Source: Ignavibacteriales bacterium
GTDB taxonomy: Bacteria; Bacteroidota; Ignavibacteria; Ignavibacteriales; Melioribacteraceae
DNA: 64,000 nt
Assembly: GCA_026390795.1 (NCBI GenBank)
Contig: JAPLFG010000003.1
Location: 1,364,001 to 1,428,000 of the forward strand
Direction of reading: 5' to 3'
Position 1 is the first letter of the stretch. Every line of letters starts with the position of its first letter. Shown here piece after piece: positions 3,227-46,979 of the stretch. The position numbers and the translations under genes are program-made. Below the pieces are notes generated by a model that worked only from the letters and a program-made list of their open reading frames with translations, did no database searches and was not told the DNA's origin.

Positions 3227-6200
3227 TTACCTTCTCCCGCTTATCTGCCACGCCATTAATCTGCGGAGGTGAAATATATCATCGAAGTTTCGATTAAGAT
3301 TTGTAAGAGCAAAGAAATACCCGATAACTTTTTCCACATCATTCCTATATAATGCCGAAACGGCACCATAGTAATAATAACTCTCGGTATCAATTAACTT
3401 AATTAGGCTTGGGTTCTCGCGTAAAATCTTTTCAACTCTCGCGCATAAATTTTCTGCGGAAGAATACTCACCATTTAGTAAATATATTTTAGCAAGCTGC
3501 AAATAAACGGCCACCATTGAGACGCTATCCGGCTTTGTCGTCTTAATAAAAGCGCTCGCTTCCTCTTTAATAGAATATAATTTTAAGAAGGAAGTAGCAT
3601 TGGTTTTTTCCAGAATCTCCTGGTTGTTATAATCTTTTATAATTTGTGCAGAATCCGGAAATAAAACGATTAGCTTTTCAAGCGCCGCTGTGCTTGAATT
3701 TGTAATGCCGAGCTTATTAAATGATTTTGAATAGAGAAGATTTGCTTTGTAATCGGTTGGATATAATTCCCTTAAATATTTTGAAAGTCCGTAAGCAAAT
3801 CTGTTATTAACGTTTGTGTTAAGATTGTACTCTATTGCATTTATAAAGTCGTCTTTAGTGGGATGATAACTGGCAACAAAATCTTTTATCAACAGGCTAT
3901 TTGAAAGCGTATCGAATTTTTCATCAAAGGAATAGACGTATGATGATGATTTTCCGACATAAAAAGATTTTGGCGCAATAAATTCAAGCAAAGGATGAAT
4001 TTCCGAATTGATCGGAGATTCGGAAGCCATTGCGAAAAACCCTCTCGGCGAAGATGATTGACAAGATAAAAACGTAAACAGATTCGAAATTCCAATCCGC
4101 TCAAAATCTTTATGGATTCCGGGGATACCAAATTTATTCTGAAGAGCCGTAGAATTAAAAACCGGTTTGTTTTTATAACCAACTAAAATTATATCGTTCG
4201 CAACAGAATTCCATAATTGTGCATTAGGAAAAACCGAAGCAAAAGTATTTAGCACAAGCCGGACAACTTCATCATTTGCTTCGTAAAGATGAAACCATTG
4301 AACCATTATACCGGCAGAATCAAGAGAGGAGAAGCACTTTTTAAAATATTCTTTAGAAAAGAGGTTTCCGATTCCCGCAATCCAAGGATTTGAGGGCTCG
4401 GATATTATAACATCGTATTTTTCCTTGGATAAACTTAAGAGAGTAATGGCATCTTCATTCACCAATTTTAAACGAGAATCATTTGTGCAGTTCAAGTTTT
4501 CTTTCTCGAAAAACTTTGATGCCTTTATTACTTCTTTTGAGATTTCTGCACATGTTACATTTTTAACGGGGTGTGTAAGAACCGAACCGATTGTTGTTCC
4601 GCTTCCAAATCCTACCACAAAAACATTTTTAGGATTTGGATGAAGCATCATTGGAATTTGACCCAGCAGAACTTGCGTTGGCATATCAATATAAGTGCTT
4701 GCATCCGGCTTACCGTTTATAATCAATCTTTTTTTGTCGGGGTTTGTTGTGGATTGCGTAACTGCAACTGTCGCGGTAGTTCCTTCTTCATAAAAAATTA
4801 TATTTTCATCGCTAAGTGTTTTAGAAAATTCATTAAAAGTAGCCGGCGGAACTTCACCGAATGATTTGAAAACACCTTTTATCATTACCGATTCGTTCCA
4901 TGAGGAAAAAAGAATTAAATAAAGAATAAATGATCCTACACAAAATAGATTAGAGATAATCCTTCGCGGAATTGAAAATGATCTGTATGTCCAAGAAAGA
5001 ATTATTGCAGCAATTAGGTTTAATGCAATTCCGATTTCGAATGCGCCCTTAATTCCGAAAAACGGAATGAAGACAAGAGCGGTTAAAATCACACCGAGGA
5101 CAGTTCCAAGTGTGTTTACCGAAAAAACTCTTCCTACGGAGAAACCGATTTTTTTATTTGATACCGATATAATTTCCGAGGCAACCGGCAGAGCCATCCC
5201 CATAAATAAAGTTGGAATAACCATCATCAGGAAGCAGAGCATGAACTCTACAAGAAGAAATACTTCGAAAGATTGCGGCGACTTAGAAAAAATTGATGAG
5301 ATTTGCCACAAGAGATATGGAAGGCGCTCATAAAATAAAAGCACAATCATTGTTGAAACAGCAATTGCAGTTTGTATAAAAGTAAGGAGTCTTACATAAT
5401 TAAATTTGTTTATAAACTTTTGGGAGACTATAAAACTACCGAGAGTAATTCCTCCTATAAAAGCCATTAGCATTAAAGAAAAGGCGTAAGTTGAAGAACC
5501 AAAAAAGTTAATTAGCAAACGGACCCAAACCATTTCGTAAATCAGCGCGGCCATACCTGAAATTCCCGCAACAAGCACTACGGCTGCAGCGGTTTTTTTA
5601 CTAACCTCGATTATGGAAGTAGAGTCTTCTTTTTTATTTGAAAGATCATCGGCTTCCGGTATTACATTTTTACCTTGCCTTGATATTATTAATCCGGTTA
5701 ATCCCGCAAGAATATTCAGAGCGGCTGTAGAGTAAATAGTAATGTTTAAACCGAATTCTTTGATTAGAACAAAACCGGCAAAAACAACTCCGATTACAGC
5801 TCCAAATGAATTAAGAAAGTATAGAATTGCAATCTCTTTCCGGGTGTCCTGAAGTCTATCAACAAAAAATCTACTTAGTACCGGAAGTGTTCCACCCATT
5901 GCAGTTGTCGGGGCAAAGAGTAAGAATGCGGCAATTAAAAATCTTAAACCGGTAAACAAAAAATTTTGTGAAGTTATATTTAAGCCGGAGGCAACCGAAA
6001 GAAAAAGATTGCCGAACAACAAGCTAAGAGTTGGATACACTAAACAGTATACACCTATAAACAACTCAAGCAATGAATATACCATTACCGGATTTTTTAA
6101 AGAGTCTGCTTTTTTACCAAAGAGGTAATTTCCAAATGCAAGCCCTCCTAAAAATGCAGCCAGCACAGTCATTTGAGCATAAGTTGTATTGCCGAGAAAT

Positions 6201-6301
6201 AAACTCAAATACTTGAACCAGACAATTTGATAAATTAATCCTGCAATTCCGCTAATAACAAAAAGTAAAGAGACGATAATTTTAATAGCCGGTTTTCTCA
6301 T
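3227..6301 (-). CDS. Fused polytopic membrane / spermidine synthase-like / TPR protein
   Basis: 1024 aa in three parts. Residues 1 to about 460 hold many hydrophobic helices in two similar halves (GIAGLIYQIVWFKYLSLFLG and ISGMAALIYEMVWVRLL), as in MFS-like spermidine synthase fusions. About 480-740 is a spermidine-synthase-type SAM/dcSAM fold with VVGFGSGTT, the acidic CAEISKEV strand and DVIISEPSNPW. The last ~250 residues are alpha-helical and TPR-like. These fusions are common in environmental bacteria. Aminopropyl transfer is not demonstrated, and the membrane part suggests transport or sensing of the product. A remnant resembling its last ~25 codons lies at 1791-1860. Confidence 0.82.
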   Translation of the reverse strand: MRKPAIKIIVSLLFVISGIAGLIYQIVWFKYLSLFLGNTTYAQMTVLAAFLGGLAFGNYLFGKKADSLKNPVMVYSLLELFIGVYCLVYPTLSLLFGNLFLSVASGLNITSQNFLFTGLRFLIAAFLLFAPTTAMGGTLPVLSRFFVDRLQDTRKEIAILYFLNSFGAVIGVVFAGFVLIKEFGLNITIYSTAALNILAGLTGLIISRQGKNVIPEADDLSNKKEDSTSIIEVSKKTAAAVVLVAGISGMAALIYEMVWVRLLINFFGSSTYAFSLMLMAFIGGITLGSFIVSQKFINKFNYVRLLTFIQTAIAVSTMIVLLFYERLPYLLWQISSIFSKSPQSFEVFLLVEFMLCFLMMVIPTLFMGMALPVASEIISVSNKKIGFSVGRVFSVNTLGTVLGVILTALVFIPFFGIKGAFEIGIALNLIAAIILSWTYRSFSIPRRIISNLFCVGSFILYLILFSSWNESVMIKGVFKSFGEVPPATFNEFSKTLSDENIIFYEEGTTATVAVTQSTTNPDKKRLIINGKPDASTYIDMPTQVLLGQIPMMLHPNPKNVFVVGFGSGTTIGSVLTHPVKNVTCAEISKEVIKASKFFEKENLNCTNDSRLKLVNEDAITLLSLSKEKYDVIISEPSNPWIAGIGNLFSKEYFKKCFSSLDSAGIMVQWFHLYEANDEVVRLVLNTFASVFPNAQLWNSVANDIILVGYKNKPVFNSTALQNKFGIPGIHKDFERIGISNLFTFLSCQSSSPRGFFAMASESPINSEIHPLLEFIAPKSFYVGKSSSYVYSFDEKFDTLSNSLLIKDFVASYHPTKDDFINAIEYNLNTNVNNRFAYGLSKYLRELYPTDYKANLLYSKSFNKLGITNSSTAALEKLIVLFPDSAQIIKDYNNQEILEKTNATSFLKLYSIKEEASAFIKTTKPDSVSMVAVYLQLAKIYLLNGEYSSAENLCARVEKILRENPSLIKLIDTESYYYYGAVSALYRNDVEKVIGYFFALTNLNRNFDDIFHLRRLMAWQISGRR

Positions 6302-17917: not shown

Positions 17918-20900
17918 TTATTTTACCAGCATTAATTTTTTAGAGCTCGCGAAATCATTTGCGGTTAGTCTGTAAATGTAAACCCCGCTAGCAAAGTTAG
18001 AAGCGTTCCAATTATAACGGTAACTTCCTGCATCAAGATCGGAATTGACTAGAGTAGAAACCACTCTGCCAAGCGTGTCGAAAATTTCTAATTTCACTTT
18101 ACTTCTCTTCGGCAATGTAAATTTTATTGTTGTTTCCGGATTGAAAGGATTGGGATAGTTCTGAGATAAACTATAAGCGGTTGGAATTGTGTTTTCCTTC
18201 TCAACATCACTTGCGTTCGGCTGAATCTCTAGATTATCAATTGCCCAGCCCCAGCCAACAGCTGCTTCATCAGAATATAAATGGAAGCGGATAAAAATTA
18301 CGTCCCCATTGTTAAACTTTTTTGTCATATCAATTTTGTGTTGAACATAATTTGCTGCCGTAGGATTTACGTTCGGGCTGTCATATAAAGTTTTCCAAGA
18401 ATTATTATATCTGCAGTCATATCCATCCGCCAATGGAATCCAATTCAACCCGTCCTTGCTTCCCTCGACTACGACATAATCATAAAAGTTCGGATCACCA
18501 AAATTCGGATCATCGCCTGGTTCAACTATTGCAATATCATCATATTCTATGTTCGCTAAATTTGGCGACCACGAAATTTTTATCGGTACTAAAAGATTAT
18601 AATAATAATCTGTTGCCTCGGCATAAGGATGAAGCGAGTTAATCGCTTGCGAGGTAAATCCGGACTGGGATGGAGTTGAAATACCAAAACCATTACCAGC
18701 AAAATCATAGTCATCAACCTCAAAATTATTTGAGTAACGTACCGTAGTCGGTTTGAGATTGTAAACAATAAGAGTTCTGGAAGATGATTTATAAATTAGT
18801 CCGGATTTGTAAGCGATAAGTTGAATATTTTTCGTACCGAATGTCGTTGGAATGAATTTGAAAGAAGTATCTTTTACCGAAGTTGATGCTAGCTTAATCA
18901 GTTTTTGTCCGTCAATCATAACCAAAGTTGAATCATAACCGGACCGTAACTTTGCTGAAAGGTTGATCGCTTTATCAACGCCTTGCGAGAGCGCTGAAAT
19001 GATTGGTGATAATGTAACAACCGGCGGTTGCCAGGTGCTCAAATCCGGAAGCGTAACGCTCCAGATTCCTCTGCCATGTGTTGCAAGAACAACTTGATCA
19101 TCTACAATTTTCATATCCCAGATACATACAGCAGGCAAGCCGTTATCAGCAGCGAGCCAGGTTACACCATTGTTAGTAGATACAAATAAGCCAATCTCTG
19201 TTCCTGCCCAAATAATATCTGTGTTATAAGGCATTACTAAAACGCAATAAGTTGCAACATTTGGAAATCCGTTACTGCTTATTGAACCGGAACCGAAACC
19301 GGAAATATCTTCCCAGCTTATTCCCAGATTTGTTGTTCGTAAAATTTTTGGTGCACCCGAAAATGAGAAAGTTACATAAGCAGTTTTTCTATCTGTTGGA
19401 TGAGTGTCAATTCCAGTAATTGAACCTAAAGCAGAGCCAGAATATTTAGGAAGAGATGCAAACGTTAAACCGCCATCTATTGATAAAAATAACTTGCTTA
19501 AATAATTCGAAAAAAAACTGCCCGCCCAAACTATTTGCGGGTCTGCAATTGATATTGCAACAGGAGTGGATGTTGGGCTATACGACCAATCATTTGAAGT
19601 TATTGAACTCTTCTCCCAGGCACCGCCAAAATCTTCAGATCTCCAAACACCTTGAGAGCCGGTAGTAAAAATTAAATCGGGATCGCTATTTGATTTAGCA
19701 ATTTTTGAAATGAAGACGCCTTTTCCCGAACCAACATCCGCAAGATTAGTTGTAGATGGAAGCCAATTATTCCCGCCATCGGTTGTTCTATAAAAACCAT
19801 TGTATTGACTTCCTCCAATAATTTTATTTGGATCTTTGTAGTGCCACGCAACATCAAAGCCGTCTCCTCCAATTACATTTTTGTAAGCAGTAATTGGTGA
19901 AGCATTTTCGCCTTTAGGAGAAAGCCACGTTCCGTTATCTTGTGTTCCGCCAATGTATTCATTAAACCCCGGTTTTTTATCAACGCCGTAAAATTGTGTT
20001 GTATTGTATCCGCCGTTAAGAGCTTCCCGCCACGTTGTTCCACCGTTTGTTGAAACAGCGACACCGCCATCGTTTCCGTTGACAATCCAAAATGTACCGG
20101 GCGCAGAAGCAAGTGGAACAGGAACAATACTGTGTTGATCAACATGGATTTTGGCGCTGCTGCCAAGATTGTATTGATTATAACCATCGGTGACATGAGA
20201 AAATATAGCGAGACGGGTAGTATCCGTCGAACTAGTTAACTTGGCTTTCCAAAGATCTATTCCGCCAAAAAAAACTGTGTTCTCATCAAAAGGATGAACC
20301 GCAATTGTGTTATCATACCAGCCTTGGGTAGTTAACCAGTTTTTTGTACTGCCATCTTCTGAATTAACCAATTTCCAAGTTGCCGCCTTATCAACGGAAA
20401 CATATAAACCTGAAGTGCTGTTTTTTTCTTCACAACTTGCATAGATGTAATTTGGGTTTTTACCGGACACCGCAATTTCAATTCTTCCCGTTGTAACAAG
20501 CCCGGTGCTCGATTTTGTCCAGCTCAATCCGCCGTCTGTTGATTTATAAACACCGTCGTTGTTAACTGTACAATACTGAATTAAAAAATTTAATGGATCA
20601 GCTTTCAGATCTTGAGTTCTTTTTGCAAGAGAGCTATATGTTCGTTGCCAGCTTGTTCCGCCATCGATTGACCGCCATATACCACCTGGGAAAGTTGAAC
20701 TACTTCCGGACAATGGATTGGTGCAGGCAAGAAGAATATTCGGGTTATAAGGGTCAACAATTATTCTATTAACGTTGCTGAAATTAAGATTTGCGGTTGA
20801 TGAGAGCTGGGTCCATGTTTCGCCGTGATCAACGGACTTAAATATTCCGCTTCCGTTAACGGCATCGGCATTAAAAAATCCTTCACCGGTCCCGCAATAA

Positions 20901-21475
20901 ATTATCCCTGGATTTGATGCAGATTGTGCTAAAACTGTTGTAGCAAGATTTGGAAGGGCCTGAGTTTTACTTTCCCACGATTCACCGGCATTTGTTGTTT
21001 TCCAGATTCCGCCGCTGACTGAGCCAGCAAACCAAGTTTTATTTGTTGTATCAGTAGGATCAACAATAATTCCGCGTGTTCTTCCGCTAACATTGCCTGG
21101 TCCTCGTTCAACCCAGTTCAGATTTGTAGTTGTTTTATATAAGCGACTCTGTTTTTGAGATTTGTACAACTCTTCCATCAAATAATTCGGCGAATATTTT
21201 GGCTCTGTATCGCCATCTCTTGTTCTAATCTTTTTTTGAAACTCTGCGAACATATCCGGCTCATCGGATTTAGCCAAGCCCTTTATCTTTTTCTTTCTTC
21301 CGGAAAACAATTTTTTAATATTTTTTTTGTCATGTTCTTTCCGAATTTCTTTTGCCGGCAAAACTTTACTCTTATCCGGAGAATCTATTTTATCCTGAGC
21401 GGTAGTCATGGAGATTAATATGAAAAAGGCTAAAAAAGAAACCGGAATTAATGTTTTGCGGATCAATCTAATCAT
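17918..21475 (-). CDS. Giant T9SS-secreted propeller protein (VPS10/sialidase-like)
   Basis: 1185 aa. The signal peptide MIRLIRKTLIPVSFLAFFILISMTTAQ is followed by a basic linker. Roughly residues 100-820 carry many Asp-box repeats (TTNAGESW, SVDHGETW, SIDGGTSW, STDGGLSW, STNGGTTW, TTDGGNNW) as in two-propeller VPS10/xyloglucanase-type folds. A jelly-roll-like region (about 930-1090; WGWAIDNLEI) follows. The C-terminus is a T9SS sorting domain (QNYPNPFNPETTIKFTLP ... KKLMLVK). It is probably a surface or released binding protein or glycan-active enzyme; no catalytic residues can be assigned by eye. Confidence 0.85.
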   Translation of the reverse strand: MIRLIRKTLIPVSFLAFFILISMTTAQDKIDSPDKSKVLPAKEIRKEHDKKNIKKLFSGRKKKIKGLAKSDEPDMFAEFQKKIRTRDGDTEPKYSPNYLMEELYKSQKQSRLYKTTTNLNWVERGPGNVSGRTRGIIVDPTDTTNKTWFAGSVSGGIWKTTNAGESWESKTQALPNLATTVLAQSASNPGIIYCGTGEGFFNADAVNGSGIFKSVDHGETWTQLSSTANLNFSNVNRIIVDPYNPNILLACTNPLSGSSSTFPGGIWRSIDGGTSWQRTYSSLAKRTQDLKADPLNFLIQYCTVNNDGVYKSTDGGLSWTKSSTGLVTTGRIEIAVSGKNPNYIYASCEEKNSTSGLYVSVDKAATWKLVNSEDGSTKNWLTTQGWYDNTIAVHPFDENTVFFGGIDLWKAKLTSSTDTTRLAIFSHVTDGYNQYNLGSSAKIHVDQHSIVPVPLASAPGTFWIVNGNDGGVAVSTNGGTTWREALNGGYNTTQFYGVDKKPGFNEYIGGTQDNGTWLSPKGENASPITAYKNVIGGDGFDVAWHYKDPNKIIGGSQYNGFYRTTDGGNNWLPSTTNLADVGSGKGVFISKIAKSNSDPDLIFTTGSQGVWRSEDFGGAWEKSSITSNDWSYSPTSTPVAISIADPQIVWAGSFFSNYLSKLFLSIDGGLTFASLPKYSGSALGSITGIDTHPTDRKTAYVTFSFSGAPKILRTTNLGISWEDISGFGSGSISSNGFPNVATYCVLVMPYNTDIIWAGTEIGLFVSTNNGVTWLAADNGLPAVCIWDMKIVDDQVVLATHGRGIWSVTLPDLSTWQPPVVTLSPIISALSQGVDKAINLSAKLRSGYDSTLVMIDGQKLIKLASTSVKDTSFKFIPTTFGTKNIQLIAYKSGLIYKSSSRTLIVYNLKPTTVRYSNNFEVDDYDFAGNGFGISTPSQSGFTSQAINSLHPYAEATDYYYNLLVPIKISWSPNLANIEYDDIAIVEPGDDPNFGDPNFYDYVVVEGSKDGLNWIPLADGYDCRYNNSWKTLYDSPNVNPTAANYVQHKIDMTKKFNNGDVIFIRFHLYSDEAAVGWGWAIDNLEIQPNASDVEKENTIPTAYSLSQNYPNPFNPETTIKFTLPKRSKVKLEIFDTLGRVVSTLVNSDLDAGSYRYNWNASNFASGVYIYRLTANDFASSKKLMLVK

Positions 21476-34177: not shown

Positions 34178-37100
34178 TTACTTCATCAAAATCATTTTCT
34201 TGCTGATGTTAACATTGCTGCCGCTTAATCTGTAAATGTACATTCCCGAAGCTAACCGGCTTGCATCAAAGTTAACTTTGTGAAGTCCGCTTGCTAGTTG
34301 ATTATCAACTAAGTTAGCTACTTCTTCACCAAGAACATTGTAAACTTTCAAAGAATAGACTCCAGACTTAGTGACTGCAAATTCTATTGTAGTAGTTGGA
34401 TTAAATGGATTCGGATAGTTCTGAGCAAGTTTGAACTCCGTTGGAACTTCGGTATTATCTTCAACTGCTGTAATACCGTTGTTGCTGGAGATCGAGAAGA
34501 CTTTGCCTTCTTTAGTTCCAACATAAACATCACTTGAGTTTGGATTAACCATCATTGCGCTGACTCCGGATCCGCTCATACCGAGTGATGTCCATGTTCC
34601 ACCGTTATCCGAAGAGACAAATACACCGTTTGTTAAAGAGCTTACATAAATCTTTCCGCTCAAATCAACAGAGATTGAGTAAACAAATGTTATATCGAGC
34701 GATGTAACTTTTGTGAAGCTCATTCCGTTATCGTCGGATCTGTAAAGACCATTTCCGTATGTACCGGAGAACAATGTGGTTGAAGTTGAAGCAAGAGACC
34801 AGATTACACTGTATCCGCAAGTTAATTTAGAGAAGTTCATTCCGTCTGTTGATTTAAAGATTCCGCCCCCAGCTGTTCCGGCGAATAACTCACTGCCTTT
34901 TATTGTTAATGATTGTATTGCTAAGAAACCGCCAAATGTATTATTATTTAATTCTGCCCATGTTGTTCCGTTGGTAGATTTGAAGACTCCATATCCCCAT
35001 GTACCAGCGTATAATGTTGTTCCGTCAGTTGCTAGAGCGTGAACATCTTTTCCGTCCAAACCAACTGCTGTTGTTCCGTCAAATTTGAATACACCTTTTT
35101 CTGTTGCAGCGTACACGCTTCCGTTGAATTTAATCAGCGACCAGATAAAGGATACGTTCATTCCGTTATTTACTCTTAACCATGTTTTTCCAGCATCAGT
35201 TGATTTGTAAATCTTTCCGCCCCATGTACCGGCGTAAATATTTCCGCCGTCATATAACATTGTGTAGACAATTTCACCTTGAGCAAAAGAGCAAACGTTT
35301 GTCCATGTTCCATTCCCATTATTTCCATTATTACCGTTGCTGCCTGTGCCCGTGGTAGTGTTGGTCATCGTAATTGTAGCGCTCGATGTGTTGTTGCTTG
35401 AATTAGGATCCGGTGTAAGACATGAACTAACCGAAGCAACATTTGTTACCTTTTTCTCGAAAGGAATTTGACCGCCGAACATTACAAAGTTGAACTGACC
35501 CATTCCCGTTAGAGACTTACAAATCATTTGACCATTTAATACTCCGCTTGCAAAATTTACTGCAGCGAATGGCGCAAGGATTGTTCCTCTAACATCAATT
35601 CCGGAAATTGTAAGTGAAGTAGCTTGATAAAAATTATAAAGAACGTTGCTGATTGCAGTTCCGTTTACAACCAAACCGCCAGTCCAGTTAACATTTGTTC
35701 CGTCTATATTTACAAGAACTACCGAACCGTTTGGAACGTTGATTTCAAAATTATTTGCTGTTGACAGAACAGATCCGCTGACAGAGAATATATTTAGGAA
35801 TGGATCTGACCCAGTTAAATTTAATCCGCCCCACTGAGAAGTAGTTGTTCCGTTAACTGTATAAGTAGAAAGAGTAGTTGATAAATTTTCGAGATATACT
35901 TTTTCTGCCGCAAAGTTAATTGGGGTATCTTTTCTTAATGAACCGCCTGCAATACTAACCATTGATAACGGCAGGTTTGTCGAATGTCCGTAAACGATAT
36001 TTCCGCTATAAACCGCACCGCTTGTATATGTAAGATCGCGACCGACAATCAAAACGTCTCCGCTGTTTGCAGGTAATTGATCGCCTACGCTGTAGTTTGC
36101 AAATTGAGCATCGCGGCCAACTGCAACTTTACCCTGAGTATCTGAAGAAGGCTGAATAGCATCTTCAATTACAAATAAGTTATAATCTTTTGCTGTTCCA
36201 AGGTTGAATGTAGAGTTATTAATATTTCCGCAATCAACTTTTACTGTTATTGTTAATGTTTCAAATGCGCCGTTAGCAATTGTTCCGATGTTCCAGATTC
36301 CGGTAGTGTTGCTGTATGAACCTTGTGATGCTGTACTTGATATATAATCTAAACCTGCAGGCAAAAGATCCGATACTTGAACTCCGGTAGCTGTGTTTGG
36401 TCCGAGGTTAGATGCTTTAATTGTGAATGTAACTTGATCGTCACATTTTGGATTTGCGTTATCAACTAATTTTTCAATTTTGATATCAGCTTTATCCTGG
36501 CAGATTATATTAACTGTCCAGGTGCTTTCATCTATTACGGTTGCTGAACCATCAACCGGATGTCCTTCTGCGCGGGCAGTATTTACTAATTGTCCGCAGT
36601 CGCCATCACCCGTTACATATGACATTGTGAATGTTGTTGATTGATGAGGATCAAGAACATCAATATGTTTTATTAAATGGTTGCCGCTTGTATTGAGCAT
36701 CGCATCAAAGATATCAATGCCGCCGTGAAGTTGAATATCGCCGCAGTTTTCAACCAAGAATGAATATGTGATCGTTTCGCCTTTGTTGTATGATTGTTTG
36801 TCTGCTGATTTTGTAATTGTAACGCAAGTTTTATAGTAACCAAAATTGATTGATAGATTATCGTTACAGTTTAATGTTGTATTTACAGAAGTACTGTTTT
36901 TTGTGTACCATTTTGTTTGAGCTGTGTTATAAAACGCTCCACCGGATGTAAAATTAGAAGCAGCGATTCTAACTGTGTATGTACCGTTCAAAACATTTGT
37001 AAATGAGTAATGACCGTTTACATCTGTTGTCGTTGGAGTTACTGTTGTTCCTTGTACAAGTTCAACAATAACACCGGCAATACCTGCTTCGCCTGTATCT

Positions 37101-39247
37101 TTTGTTCCGTTTACATTTAAGTCACGATAAACATAACTGCCGATTGTATTATTGCAAACCGAACAGTCAATTGCTACTGTTACACTGGTTTCAGCTGTAA
37201 CTGTTGCCGAACCATCAACCGGATGACCTTCTGCGCGGGCAGTGTTAATAAGATTGCCGCAATCGGCTGCTTTTACTGTGTACTTTGTATTAGTCGAAGG
37301 AATTGTAAATGTCTGTCCTGCTTCAATCACATCAATATGATAAGCTGTGGTTCCCCAAAGTAAGTTATCAAAAACATCTACACCGCCGTGTAACTCTATA
37401 TCGCCGCAATTTTCTACAGTGATTGTATATGTTATTTTATCGCCGACTTTGTAAGTTGCTTTATCAGCCGTCTTTGTAATTCCAACGCATGTTTTGTAGT
37501 ACCCGAAATTGATTGACAAATTATCATTGCAGCTCAAAGTTGTGGTTACGGAAGTACTATTCTTTGTGTACCATTTTACCGTTGTGGTATTAAAGAAGAC
37601 TCCGCCTGAAGTAAAATTGGAAGAAGCTAAACGAACTTTATAAGTTCCGTTCGATAAATTAATAAAAGAATACTTTCCAGTTGCATCTGTAGTTGTTGTT
37701 GAGATCAAAGTTGTTCCGCTTAATAATTCAACAACAGCTCCTTGAATTCCAGGCTCGCCGGAATCTTTTGTTCCATTTGAATTCAGATCGCGATAAACAT
37801 AACTGCCTAGAGCATTCTTGCAAACTAAATCTGTGCATGAAAGAAATCCTTTATCAACAGTTCCGTTATCAAAATTTTCATTGATTGAAGTTGCGGCATC
37901 ATTAATTTCGCTAAAAGTATGACCATTTAAAGATCCGCCGCCGATTGCTGCCTCTGCATAAGTTAAAAATGCATTAACAGTAATTCCTGTAAAAGGACCG
38001 GTTGCAATTGCCAGATCGCCAAGATTTGTTGCGTTATTACCGATCTTACCTGCAGCATCGTAAGCAACATTTAATTTGAGCGCAGTTAGTTGACCAGAGA
38101 GAACATTAATGCTGGAAGTTGGATTACTATAATTTTGTGTATAAGCCGCGGCGGTTCCGCCATCAGGTAGATAATTCTTAACTGCCGTTGCGCTTGTAAG
38201 TGTTAATTTAAATCCTCCCCCAACTGTTAGCCCGCTTGGAAATACTGTTGAAAAATTTAAATCTCTAATTTTACCAGGTGTGCTGTTAGATGGTCCGCCC
38301 CATCCGCCTTGTGTAAATGTTGTAAAACCTTTTGTGTCGCATGTTCCTGGAGTGCCCGGTGTATACCAGACTATAGTAGAATTGATTTCTTTAATATCTG
38401 TTGTAGGTGTGGCAAGAACTAATTTTTGTTTTCCTGTTGGATCATTTTTATCTACATATCGTGTACCCTGTGCAATTACTACAGTAGCTTGTGCTTTAAC
38501 AGTCGCTGTTCCAGTTCCGCTATATGAAAGTGTAATTGGACCAACTCTGCCGGAAGAATTTGTTGTTCCGCTTGTTGCGCTTAATGTACCAAGATTTTTT
38601 GTGAATGTAATTGGCAAATTAGCAATGGGGTCACCGTTTAGATCTAATGCGTAAACATCGAATGTTGCTGGTGTTCCTTGTACCAATGATTGAGCCGCCG
38701 GAACAAAAATTAAGGATTGAAGAGTAATAGTATTGTTGTGATTAGCCGTTGCATCTGCAATTATTGCGCTTGTTCTGCTTTTTACAGTAGCATCAGAAAT
38801 AGTGTTTACATTTAGACCATCACTGAAATGCCAGATTGCTAACTGAACCGATGCAGCTTCTTTATCATTGTCTGAAAGCTTATTCGTATAACTTGTTTTG
38901 TAAGGGAAGTAATTGTTAAGTATATAAGTCATCTCAGAAGGAGTTGTACCCTCATCCCAATATGTTGGATGTTGACTTGGGTTTACAGTGTGTGCTAAAT
39001 CAATGCAGTAGAATTTTTGCGGTTGACCGTTAAGTGTACCAGTTATAACTCCTGCAAAACCAGTTTGATTATTAAAGCCAAGATTGTTGATCCCCTCAGC
39101 TGTTCCATTAACAACAATTATACTGGTATAATCTAGCGCTCCCGATTTTATGTTACTTTTCTGTTGAGCAACAATCGGGGAGGTTAACAATACGAAGAGT
39201 GATAAAACTAAAACCGCTCTTAAGTAAGTTATTGTACAATTATTCAC
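34178..39247 (-). CDS. Multidomain T9SS surface protein with N-terminal thioester domain
   Basis: 1689 aa from the GTG at 39247, which has a strong SD (AAAAGGAG, 7-nt spacing). Longer starts are possible but carry no signal. Signal peptide, then a Cys-Gln thioester-type domain (about 30-170): FYCIDLAH and ASVQLAIWHFSDG. Next are a Big-1-like domain, a beta-rich segment, two tandem units of SdrD B-like repeat (GSYVYRDLN.NGTKD.GE.GI) plus DUF11-like domain, a third DUF11, a choice-of-anchor A domain, a Ycf48-like propeller and a T9SS sorting domain (QNYPNPFNPTTTIEF ... KKMILMK). It looks like a covalent adhesin exported by T9SS. The upstream promoter resembles sigma54. Confidence 0.87.
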   Translation of the reverse strand: MNNCTITYLRAVLVLSLFVLLTSPIVAQQKSNIKSGALDYTSIIVVNGTAEGINNLGFNNQTGFAGVITGTLNGQPQKFYCIDLAHTVNPSQHPTYWDEGTTPSEMTYILNNYFPYKTSYTNKLSDNDKEAASVQLAIWHFSDGLNVNTISDATVKSRTSAIIADATANHNNTITLQSLIFVPAAQSLVQGTPATFDVYALDLNGDPIANLPITFTKNLGTLSATSGTTNSSGRVGPITLSYSGTGTATVKAQATVVIAQGTRYVDKNDPTGKQKLVLATPTTDIKEINSTIVWYTPGTPGTCDTKGFTTFTQGGWGGPSNSTPGKIRDLNFSTVFPSGLTVGGGFKLTLTSATAVKNYLPDGGTAAAYTQNYSNPTSSINVLSGQLTALKLNVAYDAAGKIGNNATNLGDLAIATGPFTGITVNAFLTYAEAAIGGGSLNGHTFSEINDAATSINENFDNGTVDKGFLSCTDLVCKNALGSYVYRDLNSNGTKDSGEPGIQGAVVELLSGTTLISTTTTDATGKYSFINLSNGTYKVRLASSNFTSGGVFFNTTTVKWYTKNSTSVTTTLSCNDNLSINFGYYKTCVGITKTADKATYKVGDKITYTITVENCGDIELHGGVDVFDNLLWGTTAYHIDVIEAGQTFTIPSTNTKYTVKAADCGNLINTARAEGHPVDGSATVTAETSVTVAIDCSVCNNTIGSYVYRDLNVNGTKDTGEAGIAGVIVELVQGTTVTPTTTDVNGHYSFTNVLNGTYTVRIAASNFTSGGAFYNTAQTKWYTKNSTSVNTTLNCNDNLSINFGYYKTCVTITKSADKQSYNKGETITYSFLVENCGDIQLHGGIDIFDAMLNTSGNHLIKHIDVLDPHQSTTFTMSYVTGDGDCGQLVNTARAEGHPVDGSATVIDESTWTVNIICQDKADIKIEKLVDNANPKCDDQVTFTIKASNLGPNTATGVQVSDLLPAGLDYISSTASQGSYSNTTGIWNIGTIANGAFETLTITVKVDCGNINNSTFNLGTAKDYNLFVIEDAIQPSSDTQGKVAVGRDAQFANYSVGDQLPANSGDVLIVGRDLTYTSGAVYSGNIVYGHSTNLPLSMVSIAGGSLRKDTPINFAAEKVYLENLSTTLSTYTVNGTTTSQWGGLNLTGSDPFLNIFSVSGSVLSTANNFEINVPNGSVVLVNIDGTNVNWTGGLVVNGTAISNVLYNFYQATSLTISGIDVRGTILAPFAAVNFASGVLNGQMICKSLTGMGQFNFVMFGGQIPFEKKVTNVASVSSCLTPDPNSSNNTSSATITMTNTTTGTGSNGNNGNNGNGTWTNVCSFAQGEIVYTMLYDGGNIYAGTWGGKIYKSTDAGKTWLRVNNGMNVSFIWSLIKFNGSVYAATEKGVFKFDGTTAVGLDGKDVHALATDGTTLYAGTWGYGVFKSTNGTTWAELNNNTFGGFLAIQSLTIKGSELFAGTAGGGIFKSTDGMNFSKLTCGYSVIWSLASTSTTLFSGTYGNGLYRSDDNGMSFTKVTSLDITFVYSISVDLSGKIYVSSLTNGVFVSSDNGGTWTSLGMSGSGVSAMMVNPNSSDVYVGTKEGKVFSISSNNGITAVEDNTEVPTEFKLAQNYPNPFNPTTTIEFAVTKSGVYSLKVYNVLGEEVANLVDNQLASGLHKVNFDASRLASGMYIYRLSGSNVNISKKMILMK

Positions 39248-39254
39248 GATACGA

Positions 39255-39262
39255 CTCCTTTT
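39255..39262 (-). promoter_or_regulatory. Shine-Dalgarno that fixes a GTG start
   Basis: AAAAGGAG on the minus strand, 7 nt before the GTG at 39247-39245. It is stronger than most ribosome sites in the window and decides the start of the surface protein. Confidence 0.7.
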
Positions 39263-39288
39263 GATAATTAAATAAGTGAGCAGTAAAA

Positions 39289-39304
39289 GGCAATCATGAT
39301 GCCA
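39289..39304 (-). promoter_or_regulatory. Candidate sigma54 (RpoN) promoter
   Basis: The minus strand reads TGGCATCATGATTGCC, matching TGGCAC-N5-TTGCA with correct GG/GC spacing and two mismatches (C to T at the end of the -24 box, A to C at the end of the -12 box). It lies about 40 nt before the GTG start. The rest of 39305-39635 holds no supported gene. Confidence 0.4.
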
Positions 39305-39635
39305 CATCAATGTTTTGTTTTTAGCCGAAAATCGCCACTTTTAGATGATTATTTAACGTGAATATGTTTCAAAATGATATACCATATTTTATTGAGCCAG
39401 CTAAAAAGCGGGTGTAATCGCCTTATTCTAATCAACTTACTTGAACTTCTCACAGAAAACCCTTTCTGCTTTTCAAGCGTAAAAAGCTATCGGTTAATAA
39501 AAAAGGTTTTGCCTGACCGCATTGCTCTATTGTTTTTGGGATTTTCTCAAAACGGACAGATAAAATGATAAAATATGTTTCTTTGGAAGGATTAATTTTG
39601 GGAAGAACTTTGCGACTTTAAGCCGTGAAGCAGAT

Positions 39636-41975: not shown

Positions 41976-43097
41976 TTACTTAAGCAAAATCATTTTCTTC
42001 GTTTGAATAAAATTGCCTGCTTTTAGTTGATAAAAGTAAACACCGGAAGGTAATTGAAAATGACGAATTGAAAATTGAGAATTGTAATTTCCGGGCTCCT
42101 GCTCTTTGTCAACAAGTAATGCCACTTCTCTTCCCAGCATATCATAAACTTTTAACTGCACATGGCTGAAAGCTGAAAGCTGATAGCTGATAACTGTAGA
42201 TGGATTAAACGGATTGGGGTAGTTCTGATACAAGACAAAGTTCAGCGGAAGATCTTTTGTGTTTGCTACCTTTGTTGCGGAAGGATCGGGACTCCCAGCA
42301 TCCACCCATGCCGTATAAATAAGAGATGCAAGCCTGCTCGAAGCTTCTGAAAAAAGTCGTATCGTAAAGTTGCCCGTTAGGTCCCAAAGTTTTTGGTAAT
42401 AGATGCTGTTACTTGTGCTACCACCCGCAAAGGATTTTGCTGATTTATCAGCACTTAGTACCGAATCAACACATTTGTAATTTTCATAAATATAAGAGAA
42501 GACAAAATCTCTCACAGTTGTAACATACTTTGCTGAATCGGGAGTGTATTGAATCAAATTTTGGTAATTGCCAATCAGTGTTGATTCATACCTTGAATGA
42601 ACTCCGCTCTGTCCGCTAAGCTGTCCGTTATAATTCTTTGTAATGTGAAGAGGCATATGCGAGTCGCCTACATAATGACCTAAGTCCGCAGCAGTAAGTT
42701 GTGCTCTGTTAAAGTCCTTTCTACTAAATTGAGCTTTTAAAGAGTCGAATGTGGCTATAATTGCCCAAGGCAGAATACCGTTATCCATAACAAACGTGTT
42801 GCCGTATTTTGCTGTAAGGGAATAATAATCCTGAGGTATTGTGTGGGTAGAGTTAAACTCGGAATACTCGTCAATATCAATGAAATGTTTCGGTGATTCG
42901 TTTGGATCGTTGTCTTTTCTGTTGTCCGCATCAGATGCATGTTGAGCAAGGATAGACGACCAAGAGAAGAATTGATTCATCTGCGCGGGAAATGATATAA
43001 CAGTTTTTATGTTAATTATTTTGTGTCCAACCGCTCCCCAACCAACAAACAGGAGTGAAACAATAACCAGCAGTAAAGTCGTATATTTATTTTTCAC
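41976..43097 (-). CDS. T9SS-secreted zinc-dependent phospholipase C-like enzyme
   Basis: 374 aa. I chose the GTG at 43097 because AAGGA lies 5 nt upstream and the signal peptide then ends right before WGAVGHK, so Trp becomes the mature N-terminus. In the PLC/P1-nuclease family this residue is a zinc ligand. Other ligands: His in GHK, HASDAD, HFIDID, LGHYVGDSHMPLH and GVHSRYE; the HxxxE spacing favours phospholipase C over S1/P1 nuclease (HxxxD). The C-terminus is a T9SS domain (QNYPNPFNPSTVISY ... KKMILLK). Two heptanucleotide tandem repeats lie inside the sorting domain coding region. Confidence 0.8.
   Translation of the reverse strand: MKNKYTTLLLVIVSLLFVGWGAVGHKIINIKTVISFPAQMNQFFSWSSILAQHASDADNRKDNDPNESPKHFIDIDEYSEFNSTHTIPQDYYSLTAKYGNTFVMDNGILPWAIIATFDSLKAQFSRKDFNRAQLTAADLGHYVGDSHMPLHITKNYNGQLSGQSGVHSRYESTLIGNYQNLIQYTPDSAKYVTTVRDFVFSYIYENYKCVDSVLSADKSAKSFAGGSTSNSIYYQKLWDLTGNFTIRLFSEASSRLASLIYTAWVDAGSPDPSATKVANTKDLPLNFVLYQNYPNPFNPSTVISYQLSAFSHVQLKVYDMLGREVALLVDKEQEPGNYNSQFSIRHFQLPSGVYFYQLKAGNFIQTKKMILLK
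42052..42086 (+). repeat. Heptanucleotide tandem repeat 1 (AATTGAR type)
   Basis: Five 7-bp units: AATTGAA, AATGACG, AATTGAA, AATTGAG, AATTGTA. It lies within the phospholipase C-like gene, where it encodes NSQFSIRHFQ in the T9SS sorting domain. Confidence 0.65.
42165..42192 (+). repeat. Heptanucleotide tandem repeat 2 (GCTGAWA type)
   Basis: Four 7-bp units: GCTGAAA, GCTGAAA, GCTGATA, GCTGATA, with a fifth degenerate ACTGTAG. It lies in the same gene, encoding the segment YQLSAFS of the sorting domain. Confidence 0.7.
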
Positions 43098-43228
43098 AAC
43101 AATCCTTATCATTAACAAAATTGGGGATGCAAATCTAATAAAATAGCAGTCGAGAATGATGATATATAAAAGAAATAACTCTTGAAGAAAAAACGGCTCT
43201 CAAAAGAAAGCTGCTTCTCAATAAACTT

Positions 43229-43260
43229 CTTGCCTCTAGCCTCTTACCTCTAACCCCTTG
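43229..43260 (+). repeat. Heptanucleotide tandem repeat 3 (CTWRCCT type)
   Basis: Units CTTGCCT, CTAGCCT, CTTACCT, CTAACCC and a partial CTTG. It fills the end of the 165-nt gap between the phospholipase C-like and endonuclease I genes, stopping 2 nt before the stop codon of the latter. Confidence 0.65.
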
Positions 43261-43262
43261 CA

Positions 43263-45656
43263 TTACTTCAATAGCACAAACTTTGCGGATTTATGAAATT
43301 CTTTTCCGCCGGAAACTGATCTTGCGTTAATCGTGTAAATATAAATACCGCTTGTTAGTTTAGAATTTAGAGAGGAGAATGTAGTGTTATGAAGTCCTGC
43401 GTTCTGCACTCCGTTTATTAATCTAATAATCTCGCGGCCGAGTATGTCAAAAACTTTTAATGAAACAAAACTACTGGTCGGCAATTGATAGCTGATTACA
43501 GTACTTGGATTAAACGGGTTGGGATAATTTTGGTATAAAACAAAATTGCTAATAGTTTGATCTCCGTAATTCTCTTTAACATCATTTGGAAGCCCCCAGA
43601 TAGAAGTGATCCATTCCGGATGATCTATATATGGATTCCTATTATGCTGATAATAATAGATCACATTATTTCTATTCATCTCAAAAGCATCCGGCGGATC
43701 TTGCAAATTCCATTGAAGCAAGGTTGATAATTTCCCATAAAAACCTTTCAAAGAGTCATTTGGAGTGTCGGGAGATGGTACGTAGTTAACAATTTGCAAG
43801 TTAGGTTCACCCGCTACATCACCATTGTATCTAGTTGCCATATAAAAAATCATTCTTGCAACATCACCCTTCGTTTCATCTCTCGGTTCCCAAGATGTGC
43901 CGGCAATGTATTTACTGCCCCCACCGTTTGGGACAAGGTTTCCGCCATTATCAAAATCAAGATTGCTCTTTAAAGAATTAACATTACTGTTTTCCGGACG
44001 CAAATGATGACCATCTGTTCCAGCGCCTATATCTGTCCCAAAATCTCCGTGAGATTTTGACCACACATGTTCCCTGTTCCAAATATTAGCTTGTTGATTT
44101 TTTGCCATCGAGATCCCGGAGTAAATTCCAATAACATTATTATAGTTTTTCGGATCTTCATCTGCGGCCTTATCCATCGTCCATACATAATCGTATGAAA
44201 ATTTAATACTATTGTTCTTAATTAAATTGTGCAATTCTGTTTTTAATTCTTCACCTGTAAGACCTTGCGTTATTGTTGTGTAATATGAATTATCCGTTCC
44301 GCTTGTTATTGATAACCTGAAATTAGAGATCGAACCGGTGTGGGCAAGAGAACCGCCTGTAACATTCTGAATTAGGAAATATGCTTTCTTGGGAATCTCC
44401 GAAATACCATTATCTGAAATAGTTAAAGCGATATTTTGATTTGCCGAACTTCCTGCCGGAAAAATTACAGTCCAGGTAGAATCATTATTTAAATAAGAAG
44501 TTTTTGCCGTACTTGAATCAGAAATGAAAATTACAGAGCAAGTTGTTGCGTTTGTTACATCGGGATCGGTAATAGTTAATTCAAGATTATAAACGCCGTT
44601 TGATTTCGCTACGGCATCGCTAATTCCATTAAACTGCACGTGTGTAATTATATCTAATGTAGTAACTGAAATACTATTTGAAGTGTCGCTTGTTCCAAAA
44701 CTGTTCTTAGCTTTTACACGGTAATAATATTTTGTTCCCGGCATTAAAGATGTAACAGTTGCGCTTGTTATGTTGCCAGCATCTTTATTTTCAAAATCGG
44801 TAATGAAATTTGAAAAATCTGAAGAAGTAGAAACATCAAGTAAATATGAAGTTGCGCTTGCCGAGCTGTTCCAGTTTGCAGTAAAACTAGTTGCCGTAAT
44901 ATTGCTTGCAGCAAGAGCGGCTGTAGCGTTTGGCGCCGTTGTAGTGCCGCCAATATTATTCATTACAAAATTATCTATCCCTATTGCTTGTGCGTTCGAT
45001 GTTGTTGTTCCAGTTGTAACGGAATAATTAAATGCCAAGTAAAAACTTCCGTTTTGGAGAATAGATAAACCGGAAAGAGGTTGATTTAAAATTTTCTTTG
45101 TTTCTATCGGCACAGTTGGCGAACCGGTGTTATCTATATTTGTCGGAAAGCTTGTTACAAAATTTGAATCTGCAGAAGTCCAGGTGGTGCCATTTGTTGA
45201 ATAATATAGCTGAATAGAAAAACCGGCTGCATTTGAACCGTTACGGAACCGCATAACATCGTATGATAAATCAACCTGGGTTAATGTTTGAGTTCCTGTA
45301 TTCTTGAAATAAGAATAGATGTTAACGCTTTGAGAACCACCGCCTGAAGATAAACCGCCAATAGCTCTATCGGTAGCGGTAGTAGCTGCGCCAATGCCAA
45401 AATTATAAATCCCATTTCCTGCCGACAAAGATAAATTTGTGCCACCGGCGTAATTAGTTGTATTTCCCGCAGCGCTGTAATTTCCAACGGTTCTAACCGA
45501 AGTTAGCTTATCAACCTTCCAATGAGCAGGCAATGTAGCCGAAGCGATTGTTAAAAGAGAATTAAAATTTTCGGTTACTTCAATTCCGGGCGCGATTGAT
45601 ATCTGCGCGAAAGAAATAACAAATGGAAAGAGAATCAGAAAAAGGAATTTTTTCAT
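43263..45656 (-). CDS. T9SS-secreted endonuclease I with Fn3 domain
   Basis: 797 aa from the Met at 45656 (MKKFLFLILFPFVISFAQ signal peptide); a start 25 codons upstream adds no signal. The N-terminal ~250 residues are a beta-rich module ending IGIDNFVM. A fibronectin III domain follows (about 245-335; TSFTANWNSS ... YYYRVKAKNS), then a further beta domain. The endonuclease I catalytic domain has NREHVWSKSHG (catalytic EH), GTDGHHLRPE and NVNSLKSNLDFD. The T9SS sorting domain is QNYPNPFNPSTVISYQLP ... KFVLLK. It should degrade extracellular DNA/RNA for nucleotides and phosphate. Confidence 0.88.
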   Translation of the reverse strand: MKKFLFLILFPFVISFAQISIAPGIEVTENFNSLLTIASATLPAHWKVDKLTSVRTVGNYSAAGNTTNYAGGTNLSLSAGNGIYNFGIGAATTATDRAIGGLSSGGGSQSVNIYSYFKNTGTQTLTQVDLSYDVMRFRNGSNAAGFSIQLYYSTNGTTWTSADSNFVTSFPTNIDNTGSPTVPIETKKILNQPLSGLSILQNGSFYLAFNYSVTTGTTTSNAQAIGIDNFVMNNIGGTTTAPNATAALAASNITATSFTANWNSSASATSYLLDVSTSSDFSNFITDFENKDAGNITSATVTSLMPGTKYYYRVKAKNSFGTSDTSNSISVTTLDIITHVQFNGISDAVAKSNGVYNLELTITDPDVTNATTCSVIFISDSSTAKTSYLNNDSTWTVIFPAGSSANQNIALTISDNGISEIPKKAYFLIQNVTGGSLAHTGSISNFRLSITSGTDNSYYTTITQGLTGEELKTELHNLIKNNSIKFSYDYVWTMDKAADEDPKNYNNVIGIYSGISMAKNQQANIWNREHVWSKSHGDFGTDIGAGTDGHHLRPENSNVNSLKSNLDFDNGGNLVPNGGGSKYIAGTSWEPRDETKGDVARMIFYMATRYNGDVAGEPNLQIVNYVPSPDTPNDSLKGFYGKLSTLLQWNLQDPPDAFEMNRNNVIYYYQHNRNPYIDHPEWITSIWGLPNDVKENYGDQTISNFVLYQNYPNPFNPSTVISYQLPTSSFVSLKVFDILGREIIRLINGVQNAGLHNTTFSSLNSKLTSGIYIYTINARSVSGGKEFHKSAKFVLLK

Positions 45657-45775
45657 TACTGCCTCGTTTATAAAAACCGTATTACAAGATTTTACAAATC
45701 CGATGAAACCTGTCTGATGCGAGGCCAGCAAACTAAAAATGAAATGGTCAGACTGGTCGAAATTGGGATCATTCA

Positions 45776-45829
45776 GATTGCTTCGTCATTTTCCCGAAGG
45801 GATTCCTTCGGGACATTCCTCGCAATGAC
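45776..45829. repeat. Palindromic repeat family A, single arm
   Basis: GATTGCTTCG at one end and CTCGCAATGAC at the other enclose the hairpin CCCGAAGGgattCCTTCGGG. It corresponds to the right arm of family A; no left arm was found beside it. Confidence 0.6.
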
Positions 45830-45859
45830 CGGATCGGGTTGTTGCCCGGTACAAATAAA

Positions 45860-45886
45860 AAGAGCGGTGGTTTTTCCCCACCGCTC
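45860..45886 (-). terminator. Intrinsic terminator of the T9SS gene at 45912
   Basis: AGAGCGGTGG (45860-45869) pairs perfectly with CCACCGCTCT (45877-45886); the minus-strand tail is TTTTTATTTG. Confidence 0.8.
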
Positions 45887-45911
45887 TCTTAGCGTAATTA
45901 TGTATGTTAAA

Positions 45912-46979
45912 TTATTTCATCAACATCATTTTCTTGGTTTGAGAGAAAGAACCGGTTTGAATTGTGTAGAAATAAATTCCGCTCGGTAAATTGCTCGCAT
46001 CGAATCTGGTTTCGTAAGTGCCGGCAGCTTTATCTTGATTTACCAATGTTGAAATTTTATTGCCGAGAATATCATAAACGCTGATATTTACAAAACTGCC
46101 TTGTGGAACCTGGTATTTAATTACGGTAGAAGGGTTGAATGGGTTCGGATAGTTCTGCGATAAATTAAATTTTGTTGGAAGTGTTGAAATGTTTTCTTCA
46201 ACGCCTGTTGCTGTTCCCGTTACTGCCAAGCCCCAATTATTGGAAACTCGAATGCCATCAACAGTACCCGTTGGAGTATTGCTGCCTTGACGTACAGCAA
46301 CTGAACCAATATCAGCCGGATCATTTACACCGTCATTAACATTAGTTATTGAAAGTAAGGTCGGCCCTGATTCAGAGGTTGGAACACTACTTGAATAAAC
46401 AAATAAGCTAACAACATCGTCAGTTAATGCAGTAGCGTTAAAATCATATTTTATGACGCAAAGATATGTTTGTCCAAAATTTAAAGTAGTGGTTGTATTC
46501 ATTATTGGTGCATTCGTTCCTTGTTTAGTCACACCAATATTCCAGCCTGAACCGCTTGCAACCGCAAAAACTTTTCCTCTAAAAGTTGAAGTTGAAAATG
46601 GATTTTGACCTAAATGGAAAAAATAGTCTGCAGTACTTTTGGCAGCGCTTAAATTTACTAAAAACGCAACATATATTGTAGAAGTAGTGGTTATATCCGT
46701 AAATGTTCTATTAACATCACCATCGTTTCCAGTGCTACTTGATCCAAAGGAAAAATTTATAGCTCCACCAATATTTGAGGATGGATAATTCGAATAACTT
46801 AAACCCGGATAAGCATACGGTGGGTTTTGCGTTCCACTGTGATTTACCCAATTTGTTGTTACTGCAAGAATGCTTGCATTTGGGGCTGTGCCATAATCAA
46901 AATTTTCATTTAGAATAAGAGTTTGTGCTTGGCTAACGCTAAAACATAAAACAAAAACCAAAAGTAAAATTTTTTTCAT
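45912..46979 (-). CDS. T9SS-secreted protein, concanavalin A-like domain
   Basis: 355 aa. Signal peptide MKKILLLVFVLCFSVSQAQ. Residues 20 to about 255 form one beta-sandwich domain (LILNENFDYG ... STIYVAFLVNLS ... TVDGIRVSNNWGLAV), as in choice-of-anchor/LamG-like exported proteins of this group. The C-terminus is a T9SS domain (QNYPNPFNPSTVIKYQVP ... KKMMLMK). No catalytic motif. It is probably a surface or released binding protein. It lies between the TonB receptor and the endonuclease gene, all on the minus strand but with separate terminators. Confidence 0.8.
   Translation of the reverse strand: MKKILLLVFVLCFSVSQAQTLILNENFDYGTAPNASILAVTTNWVNHSGTQNPPYAYPGLSYSNYPSSNIGGAINFSFGSSSTGNDGDVNRTFTDITTTSTIYVAFLVNLSAAKSTADYFFHLGQNPFSTSTFRGKVFAVASGSGWNIGVTKQGTNAPIMNTTTTLNFGQTYLCVIKYDFNATALTDDVVSLFVYSSSVPTSESGPTLLSITNVNDGVNDPADIGSVAVRQGSNTPTGTVDGIRVSNNWGLAVTGTATGVEENISTLPTKFNLSQNYPNPFNPSTVIKYQVPQGSFVNISVYDILGNKISTLVNQDKAAGTYETRFDASNLPSGIYFYTIQTGSFSQTKKMMLMK

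Follow-up and report, generated by a model that had tools for sequence, protein, structure and literature searches.

A predicted thioester adhesin with a type IX secretion tail and a solenoid inserted in a CLIPPER domain, encoded by an Ignavibacteria-type bacterium

This work describes a surface protein encoded in a 64,000-nucleotide stretch of Ignavibacteriales DNA (referred to here as the window). From tip to base, it consists of a class II thioester domain (TED), a stalk of SdrD_B and DUF7507 domains, a DUF11 (CLIPPER) domain with an inserted solenoid, a propeller-like region, and a type IX secretion system (T9SS) sorting tail. We regard it as likely that the protein is a fibrillar adhesin of the covalent type, with a predicted thioester and a non-animal target, belonging to a free-living diderm of the Ignavibacteria type. 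A broader reading, to which we give as much credence as doubt, is that it represents a T9SS-exported family of covalent adhesins of free-living diderms. In such a family, the TED at the tip would form an amide bond with a non-animal target, the CLIPPER-locked solenoid would supply a second grip near the cell, and the stalk, ranging from almost nothing to about 1200 residues, would tune reach by lineage. Internal-thioester covalent adhesion has been described for Gram-positive bacteria, mostly for host binding (excerpts of PMC6194298 and PMC8092201). Searches of open-licence PMC papers found none on a thioester domain with type IX secretion, on Ignavibacter thioester adhesins, or on choice-of-anchor A adhesins, and for thioester domain adhesins in Bacteroidetes they found only a review of monoderms. 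If true, the wide occurrence of such a family among environmental diderms, with export by another secretion system, would suggest that this chemistry serves microbial surface life generally.

The gene is a single intact frame on the minus strand (34178-39310) of 1710 residues counted from a TTG at 39310, and residue numbers used here follow that count. A start at the in-frame GTG at 39247 (residue 22) improves the signal peptide and, judged from the sequence, is likelier. A promoter and terminator scan around the gene gave scores not above those of shuffled sequence. Domains above the Pfam cut-off are TED, SdrD_B, DUF7507, DUF11, pAdhesive_15, and Por_Secre_tail. The features of the gene are as follows.

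39164-39247, minus strand: signal peptide from the GTG, read from the sequence as a hydrophobic segment followed by AQQ
38363-39160, minus strand: class II thioester domain by its predicted structure, entire fold, residues about 51-316
38747-39013, minus strand: portion of the thioester domain under Pfam PF08341
39005-39007, minus strand: codon of Cys102, predicted thioester Cys (FYCID)
38843-38845, minus strand: codon of Gln156, in the structural helix motif VQLAIW and not the predicted bond partner
38465-38719 (approximate), minus strand: Ig-like (Big_1) beta-sandwich lobe inserted in the TED, a mark of class II
38426-38428, minus strand: codon of Gln295, predicted thioester Gln (GKQKLVLATP)
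37826-38401, minus strand: region between the TED and the stalk, conserved and containing FTQGGWG
37487-37822, minus strand: SdrD_B domain 1 (PF17210)
37163-37486, minus strand: DUF7507 (CLIPPER_2) domain 1 (PF24346, 3 stretches; boundaries by eye)
36824-37159, minus strand: SdrD_B domain 2 (PF17210)
36497-36823, minus strand: DUF7507 (CLIPPER_2) domain 2 (PF24346, residues 830-923)
36203-36496, minus strand: DUF11 (CLIPPER), first part (PF01345, residues 942-1036), with Lys947 (36470-36472) and Asp981 (36368-36370)
35474-36202, minus strand: pAdhesive_15 / choice-of-anchor A ice-binding-like beta-solenoid, inserted in DUF11
35366-35473, minus strand: DUF11 (CLIPPER), last strands (model strands 349-358 and 370-376), with Asn1290 (35441-35443)
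34436-35305, minus strand: beta-propeller-like repeat region
34181-34417, minus strand: T9SS type A sorting tail (PF18962, TIGR04183)

The initial annotation had assigned export to the T9SS sorting domain of a diderm, and this was borne out. The C terminus matches Por_Secre_tail with 40.3 bits against a cut-off of 27 (Pfam) and TIGR04183 with 40.6 bits against 23 (NCBIfam), and the bacterium's own genome encodes SprA, a diderm secretion gene, together with 64 T9SS tails. The features expected of a T9SS type A cargo, namely a signal peptide, a C-terminal sorting domain, and a T9SS in the genome, are all found.

The N-terminal domain matches the Pfam TED model PF08341 with 45.5 bits against a cut-off of 22 (E 1.1e-11, residues 100-188). 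The same search matched none of 14 control genomes and gave a single match in the bacterium's own genome. FYCIDLAH and ASVQLAIWHFSDG, which the initial annotation took as the signature of a Cys-Gln-type thioester domain, are both found in the translated frame, and the Pfam matches agree with its proposal that such a domain is combined with a stalk of Gram-positive style and a T9SS signal. YCID fits the [YFL]C-hydrophobic-hydrophilic Cys motif of TEDs. Measured against the helix motif TQxxPhiW, VQLAIW keeps the Gln and the Trp with the Thr substituted, and the NCBIfam TQXA model scored 24.3 bits, under its cut-off of 30.4. A disulfide is unlikely, because 68 of 80 TEDs contain a single Cys.

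An AlphaFold2 model of the TED (80 sequences; the truncated locus L059 was left out of the TED alignment, A2) had a pLDDT of 92.1. Its best PDB matches in VIA-align were 6fwv (Z 15.8, 239 aligned, rmsd 9.8 A) and 6fwy (Z 14.0, 230 aligned, rmsd 7.9 A); further matches were intimin/invasin Ig domains (Z about 12, model residues 145-269) and class I TEDs (Z 10-12). Foldseek matched 6fwy with an E value of 1.1e-9 and a TM-score of 0.46, and superposition on class II TEDs gave TM-scores of 0.41-0.46; judged from the model, the large rmsd probably reflects a different angle between the two lobes. The model has an Ig-like lobe between helix 3 and the Gln hairpin, ahead of the hairpin, and by this predicted arrangement the TED is of class II. 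The Big_1 match of the lobe (34.2 bits) is slightly below the cut-off of 34.9, and PF02369 (Big_1) is present in 40 of 58 complete relatives. Comparison of alignment A2 by hhalign with one and with seven Bacillota plasmid TEDs was not significant. The A2 profile, run against PDB sequences, matched the TEDs 5dcq, 4c0z, and 5a0l at E values of 0.04-0.4, its significant matches being Ig-like domains, and tblastn of the TED against plasmids gave a single match, to an Ig sequence.

Within this domain, the initial annotation had taken the Gln of VQLAIW (Gln156) to form the bond with Cys102. This was wrong: in published TEDs the Gln that forms the bond lies C-terminal of the helix motif, which leads to Gln295. 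In excerpts of PMC4450167 and PMC6194298, the bond pair of TEDs consists of a Cys in [YFL]C-Phi-zeta and a Gln of a C-terminal strand; the helix motif TQxxPhiW is a distinct element, whose Gln and Trp the bond does not need. The helix Gln of known TEDs hydrogen-bonds the Cys backbone (PMC6194298, in excerpt), so closeness of Cys and helix Gln in a predicted structure, the test put forward in the initial annotation, is no proof of a bond. In the model, Gln295 falls between strands 233-237 and 247-249, at the site of Gln256 of TIEpLS20 (paper numbering; Gln245 in the alignment), which excerpts of PMC8092201 describe as modelled at bond distance from the Cys. Seven Bacillota plasmid TEDs are without the helix Gln and keep Cys57 and Gln245 of TIEpLS20. 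Gln164 of TIEpLS20 is also invariant in these seven; in our 30-TED alignment, no invariant column corresponds to it. Cys102 and Gln295 are 193 residues apart, within a family range of 179-205 (80 sequences). This spacing fits class II TEDs: residue numbers in excerpts of PMC6194298 give 195 for BaTIE, 171 for SaTIE, and 204 for EfmTIE86, and the spacing in TIEpLS20 is 188. On these sequence comparisons, Gln295 rather than Gln156 is the fitting bond Gln of a thioester that is itself predicted.

Conservation was gauged in two sets. The 30-TED alignment comprises the window and 29 loci (40 TED places in the phylum sample, with loci fetched for 30) and was collected with the Pfam model, which ends before the C-terminal strand, short of Gln295; this set is free of search-pattern bias for Gln295. 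Cys102, Gln156, and Gln295 (Cys52, Gln106, and Gln245 of P0001) are invariant in all 30 TEDs, and because the helix Trp and the helix Gln are as invariant as Cys102 and Gln295, conservation alone singles out no reactive pair. In 80 loci from the species collection, Cys102, which is in no search pattern, is kept in 80/80 rows with a letter, and Gln295 in 81/81 including the window; the conservation of Gln156 and Gln295 in this set is biased, because the search patterns contain both glutamines.

Beyond the TED, the region with FTQGGWG has no significant Pfam or NCBIfam match and is single-copy in the bacterium's own genome, and the motif occurs in 32 of 58 complete relatives. The SdrD_B-like and DUF11 repeats of Gram-positive stalk type that the initial annotation had recognized are supported by Pfam matches of 113.4 bits (SdrD_B, two stretches) and 124.1 bits (DUF11). 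A further domain, unnamed in the initial annotation, matches pAdhesive_15 (Pfam, 189.4 bits) and choice_anch_A (NCBIfam, 197.1 bits). The DUF11 match ends at residue 1036, pAdhesive_15 occupies residues 1037-1274, and VTNVASVSS, which we take to be a typical last DUF11 motif, comes next.

A model of this region (61 sequences; alignment A6, without the truncated L047, L067, and L079) had a pLDDT of 93.5. Since the CLIPPER crystal structure 9ifr aligns over model residues 1-378 (Z 13.7, 117/123 aligned) and ice-binding proteins align at residues 97-341 (7bwx, Z 18.5, rmsd 2.5, 183 aligned), the solenoid forms an insert within the CLIPPER domain; the fold classes of the TED and of this unit are those shown by the models. 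The solenoid has the beta-solenoid and flanking helix of DUF3494 ice-binding proteins at this Z of 18.5, and the name of PF20597 means ice-binding-like only. The predicted isopeptide triad consists of Lys947 (64/64), Asp981 (59/64, with Glu in 5/64), and Asn1290 (61/61 rows with a letter), counted with the omission of 17 of the 80 loci without a full CLIPPER match (15 with no match and 2 too short). As predicted from the sequence, a Lys947-Asp981-Asn1290 cross-link would span the solenoid insert. Excerpts of PMC12617251 describe Lys715-Asp748-Asn806 in the CLIPPER domain of 9ifr and state that such folds tolerate inserted adhesive domains. The placement of a solenoid within a CLIPPER domain is apparently undescribed. 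A Streptomyces plasmid protein also carries a choice-of-anchor A domain; its gene has 1386 bases, that domain is its sole annotation, and a TED is not named.

Between the CLIPPER domain and the tail, the initial annotation had proposed a propeller near the anchor, and this held in part. When scanned alone, the region matches Sortilin-Vps10 with 35.2 bits against a cut-off of 33, but only weak repeat families were found, with BNR below its cut-off. From Asn1290 to the T9SS tail there are 334-375 residues in 53 of 58 relatives and 48-53 residues in the other 5, which are too short here to accommodate the propeller-like part. BNR-type repeats are also present in a second T9SS protein encoded in the window (17918-21475, minus strand).

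To survey architecture, the 80 loci were reduced to 63 complete frames and then to 58 of at least 600 residues, with the 5 shorter frames (L071, L094, L098, L103, and L108) left out. TED and T9SS tail are found in all 58 relatives, pAdhesive_15 and DUF11 in 56 each, SdrD_B in 38, and DUF7507 in 34. The distance from Gln295 to Lys947, which measures the stalk, ranges from 30 to 1202 residues with a median of 447 (63 loci). Head, clamp, and base are thus constant and the stalk varies freely; the family offers a natural series of stalk lengths. The link from TED to CLIPPER is just 30-34 residues in 20 of the 63, so a long reach is not always the point.

In the phylum sample, TEDs were found in 33 of 395 genomes, of which, by listed kinship, 31 are of the same order, one of the same class, and one from elsewhere. 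Within the order, a TED is present in 91 of 164 genomes (68 of the 109 near-complete ones) and in 44 of 68 genera; its lack in the remaining 73 genomes, including 41 near-complete ones, counts against our preferred explanation. Some genomes of the order (G476 and G441) carry three TED genes each. Records of relatives are labelled Melioribacter, Melioribacteraceae, Ignavibacteriales, Ignavibacteria, and Stygiobacter, along with broader labels. One locus labelled Anaerolineae (L071:4042-5796) has a TED of the Ignavibacteria type with a transmembrane, Arg-rich end in place of the T9SS tail, possibly as a result of transfer to another anchor or of a binning error. In the window, the gene is flanked by an RlmD-like methyltransferase gene and by rnpA-yidC. 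RlmD or rnpA/yidC neighbours are kept at 16 of 80 loci (10 upstream, 10 downstream, and 4 both; contig ends included), which suggests that the gene has long resided in the chromosome; a recent arrival by way of a mobile element was considered, and these kept neighbours do not support it.

The statement of the initial annotation that such domains bind hosts is not supported for this family. Record titles give groundwater, sediment, and other environmental or metagenomic sources for the relatives, and we rejected the host-adhesion reading on that basis. Melioribacter roseus was isolated from a mat on wood under hot well water (PMC3534657, in excerpt), which makes a mat partner, matrix, or plant-derived surface a likelier target than an animal.

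Several known systems resemble parts of this protein. Class II TIE proteins (BaTIE, 6fwv; EfmTIE86, 6fwy; SaTIE) share the N-terminal class II TED with an Ig-like insert, a similar Cys-Gln spacing, and a stalk of isopeptide domains. These are Gram-positive surface proteins, with BaTIE anchored by sortase, whereas the protein described here has a T9SS tail, a stalk of SdrD_B and CLIPPER domains, an ice-binding-like insert, and a propeller-like region. The combination that defines TIE proteins, a TED with isopeptide or ester domains, is present here in the form of DUF11/DUF7507 with a predicted Lys-Asp-Asn in DUF11. Because of the T9SS tail and the diderm SprA, we do not file the protein as a Gram-positive TIE protein, though it would work like one. 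TIEpLS20 (p34), from the Bacillus subtilis plasmid pLS20, shares YCID, a downstream YQRL where our family has (Y/K)QKL, and a class II TED, and according to excerpts of PMC8092201 it serves a non-host use, cell-cell contact. It differs in its conjugative plasmid, its CnaB-type stalk, its lack of a helix Gln, and an hhalign comparison that was not significant.

For the CLIPPER unit, the Acinetobacter silvestris adhesin B9T28_05395 (9ifr) has the same fold (Z 13.7, 117 aligned) and the same Lys-Asp-Asn order, with a Lys-to-Asp spacing of 33 against 34 here (excerpts of PMC12617251), whereas here an insert of about 240 residues separates the catalytic Asp from the Asn. DUF3494-type ice-binding proteins (7bwx and 4nu2) share the beta-solenoid and long helix (Z about 18) at 11-15% identity, and the solenoid here, ice-binding-like by fold only, sits in a stalk domain. 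In Cpa (Spy0125) of Streptococcus pyogenes, an adhesive domain likewise lies within an isopeptide domain (excerpts of PMC6194298 and PMC12617251); there it is the TED that is inserted, whereas here it is the solenoid, within CLIPPER, with a free TED at the tip. Co-occurrence of isopeptide domains with Por_Secre_tail is noted in excerpts of PMC12617251, and the pairing of isopeptide domain and T9SS tail is therefore already known.

Taken as a covalent-type adhesin, the protein would be exported by Sec and the T9SS, with its C terminus attached at the cell surface and the TED directed outward. Upon folding, Cys102 and Gln295 would form an internal thioester; once the TED has docked on a receptor, an amine of the receptor may attack this bond and so fix the cell by an amide bond. 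Covalent capture of a nucleophile has been described for SfbI and fibrinogen (PMC6194298, in excerpt). An isopeptide bond between Lys947 and Asn1290 of CLIPPER would clamp the base of the inserted solenoid, which could then act as a second, non-covalent sticky site near the cell. Another microbe, extracellular matrix, or the surface of a mat is the probable target, rather than an animal host. Alternatively, the protein may act in cell-cell contact, as for TIEpLS20 (excerpts of PMC8092201).

Other readings were weighed against this one. The TED fold could be kept without its chemistry, the domain binding non-covalently and its Cys and Gln having a structural role only; the invariance of the helix Gln and Trp alongside Cys102 and Gln295 would suit such a domain. 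We consider this improbable, though worth some weight, as both class II bond-forming residues are invariant, the Cys is the only one in 68 of 80 TEDs, and the C68S exchange in TIEpLS20 abolishes function (PMC8092201, in excerpt). Somewhat more doubtful is the proposal that the solenoid is the real adhesive, with the TED a tip module for self-attachment, for example in cross-linking neighbouring cells or matrix. The presence of pAdhesive_15 in 56 of 58 complete relatives speaks for this, as does the short TED-CLIPPER link in 20 of 63, by which both would act near the cell, but in known adhesins the TED is the distal domain (excerpts of PMC6194298).

A thioester of Cys102 with Gln156, in a domain ending near residue 188 as the Pfam model does, is very improbable. 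Gln156 is invariant, and its counterpart adjoins the Cys in known TEDs (PMC6194298, in excerpt), yet mutagenesis reported in excerpts of PMC4450167 shows that Gln to be dispensable, Gln156 lies within a helix of the model (residues 98-114), and its counterpart is missing in the seven Bacillota plasmid TEDs that keep the downstream Gln. Gln156 was rejected as bond partner on these grounds. The preferred covalent reading can be addressed experimentally, with tests within reach because an intact relative (locus L046) is carried by a named strain, Stygiobacter electus 09-Me.

Elsewhere in the window, three adjacent genes with T9SS-type tails (41976-46979, minus strand) encode an S1/P1 nuclease-like protein (by inspection of the sequence), an Endonuclease_1 protein, and a 355-residue protein in which the tail alone was recognized. 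A 1024-residue protein (3227-6301, minus strand) combines an MFS-like membrane part (26.5 bits, below the cut-off) with a spermine synthase domain.
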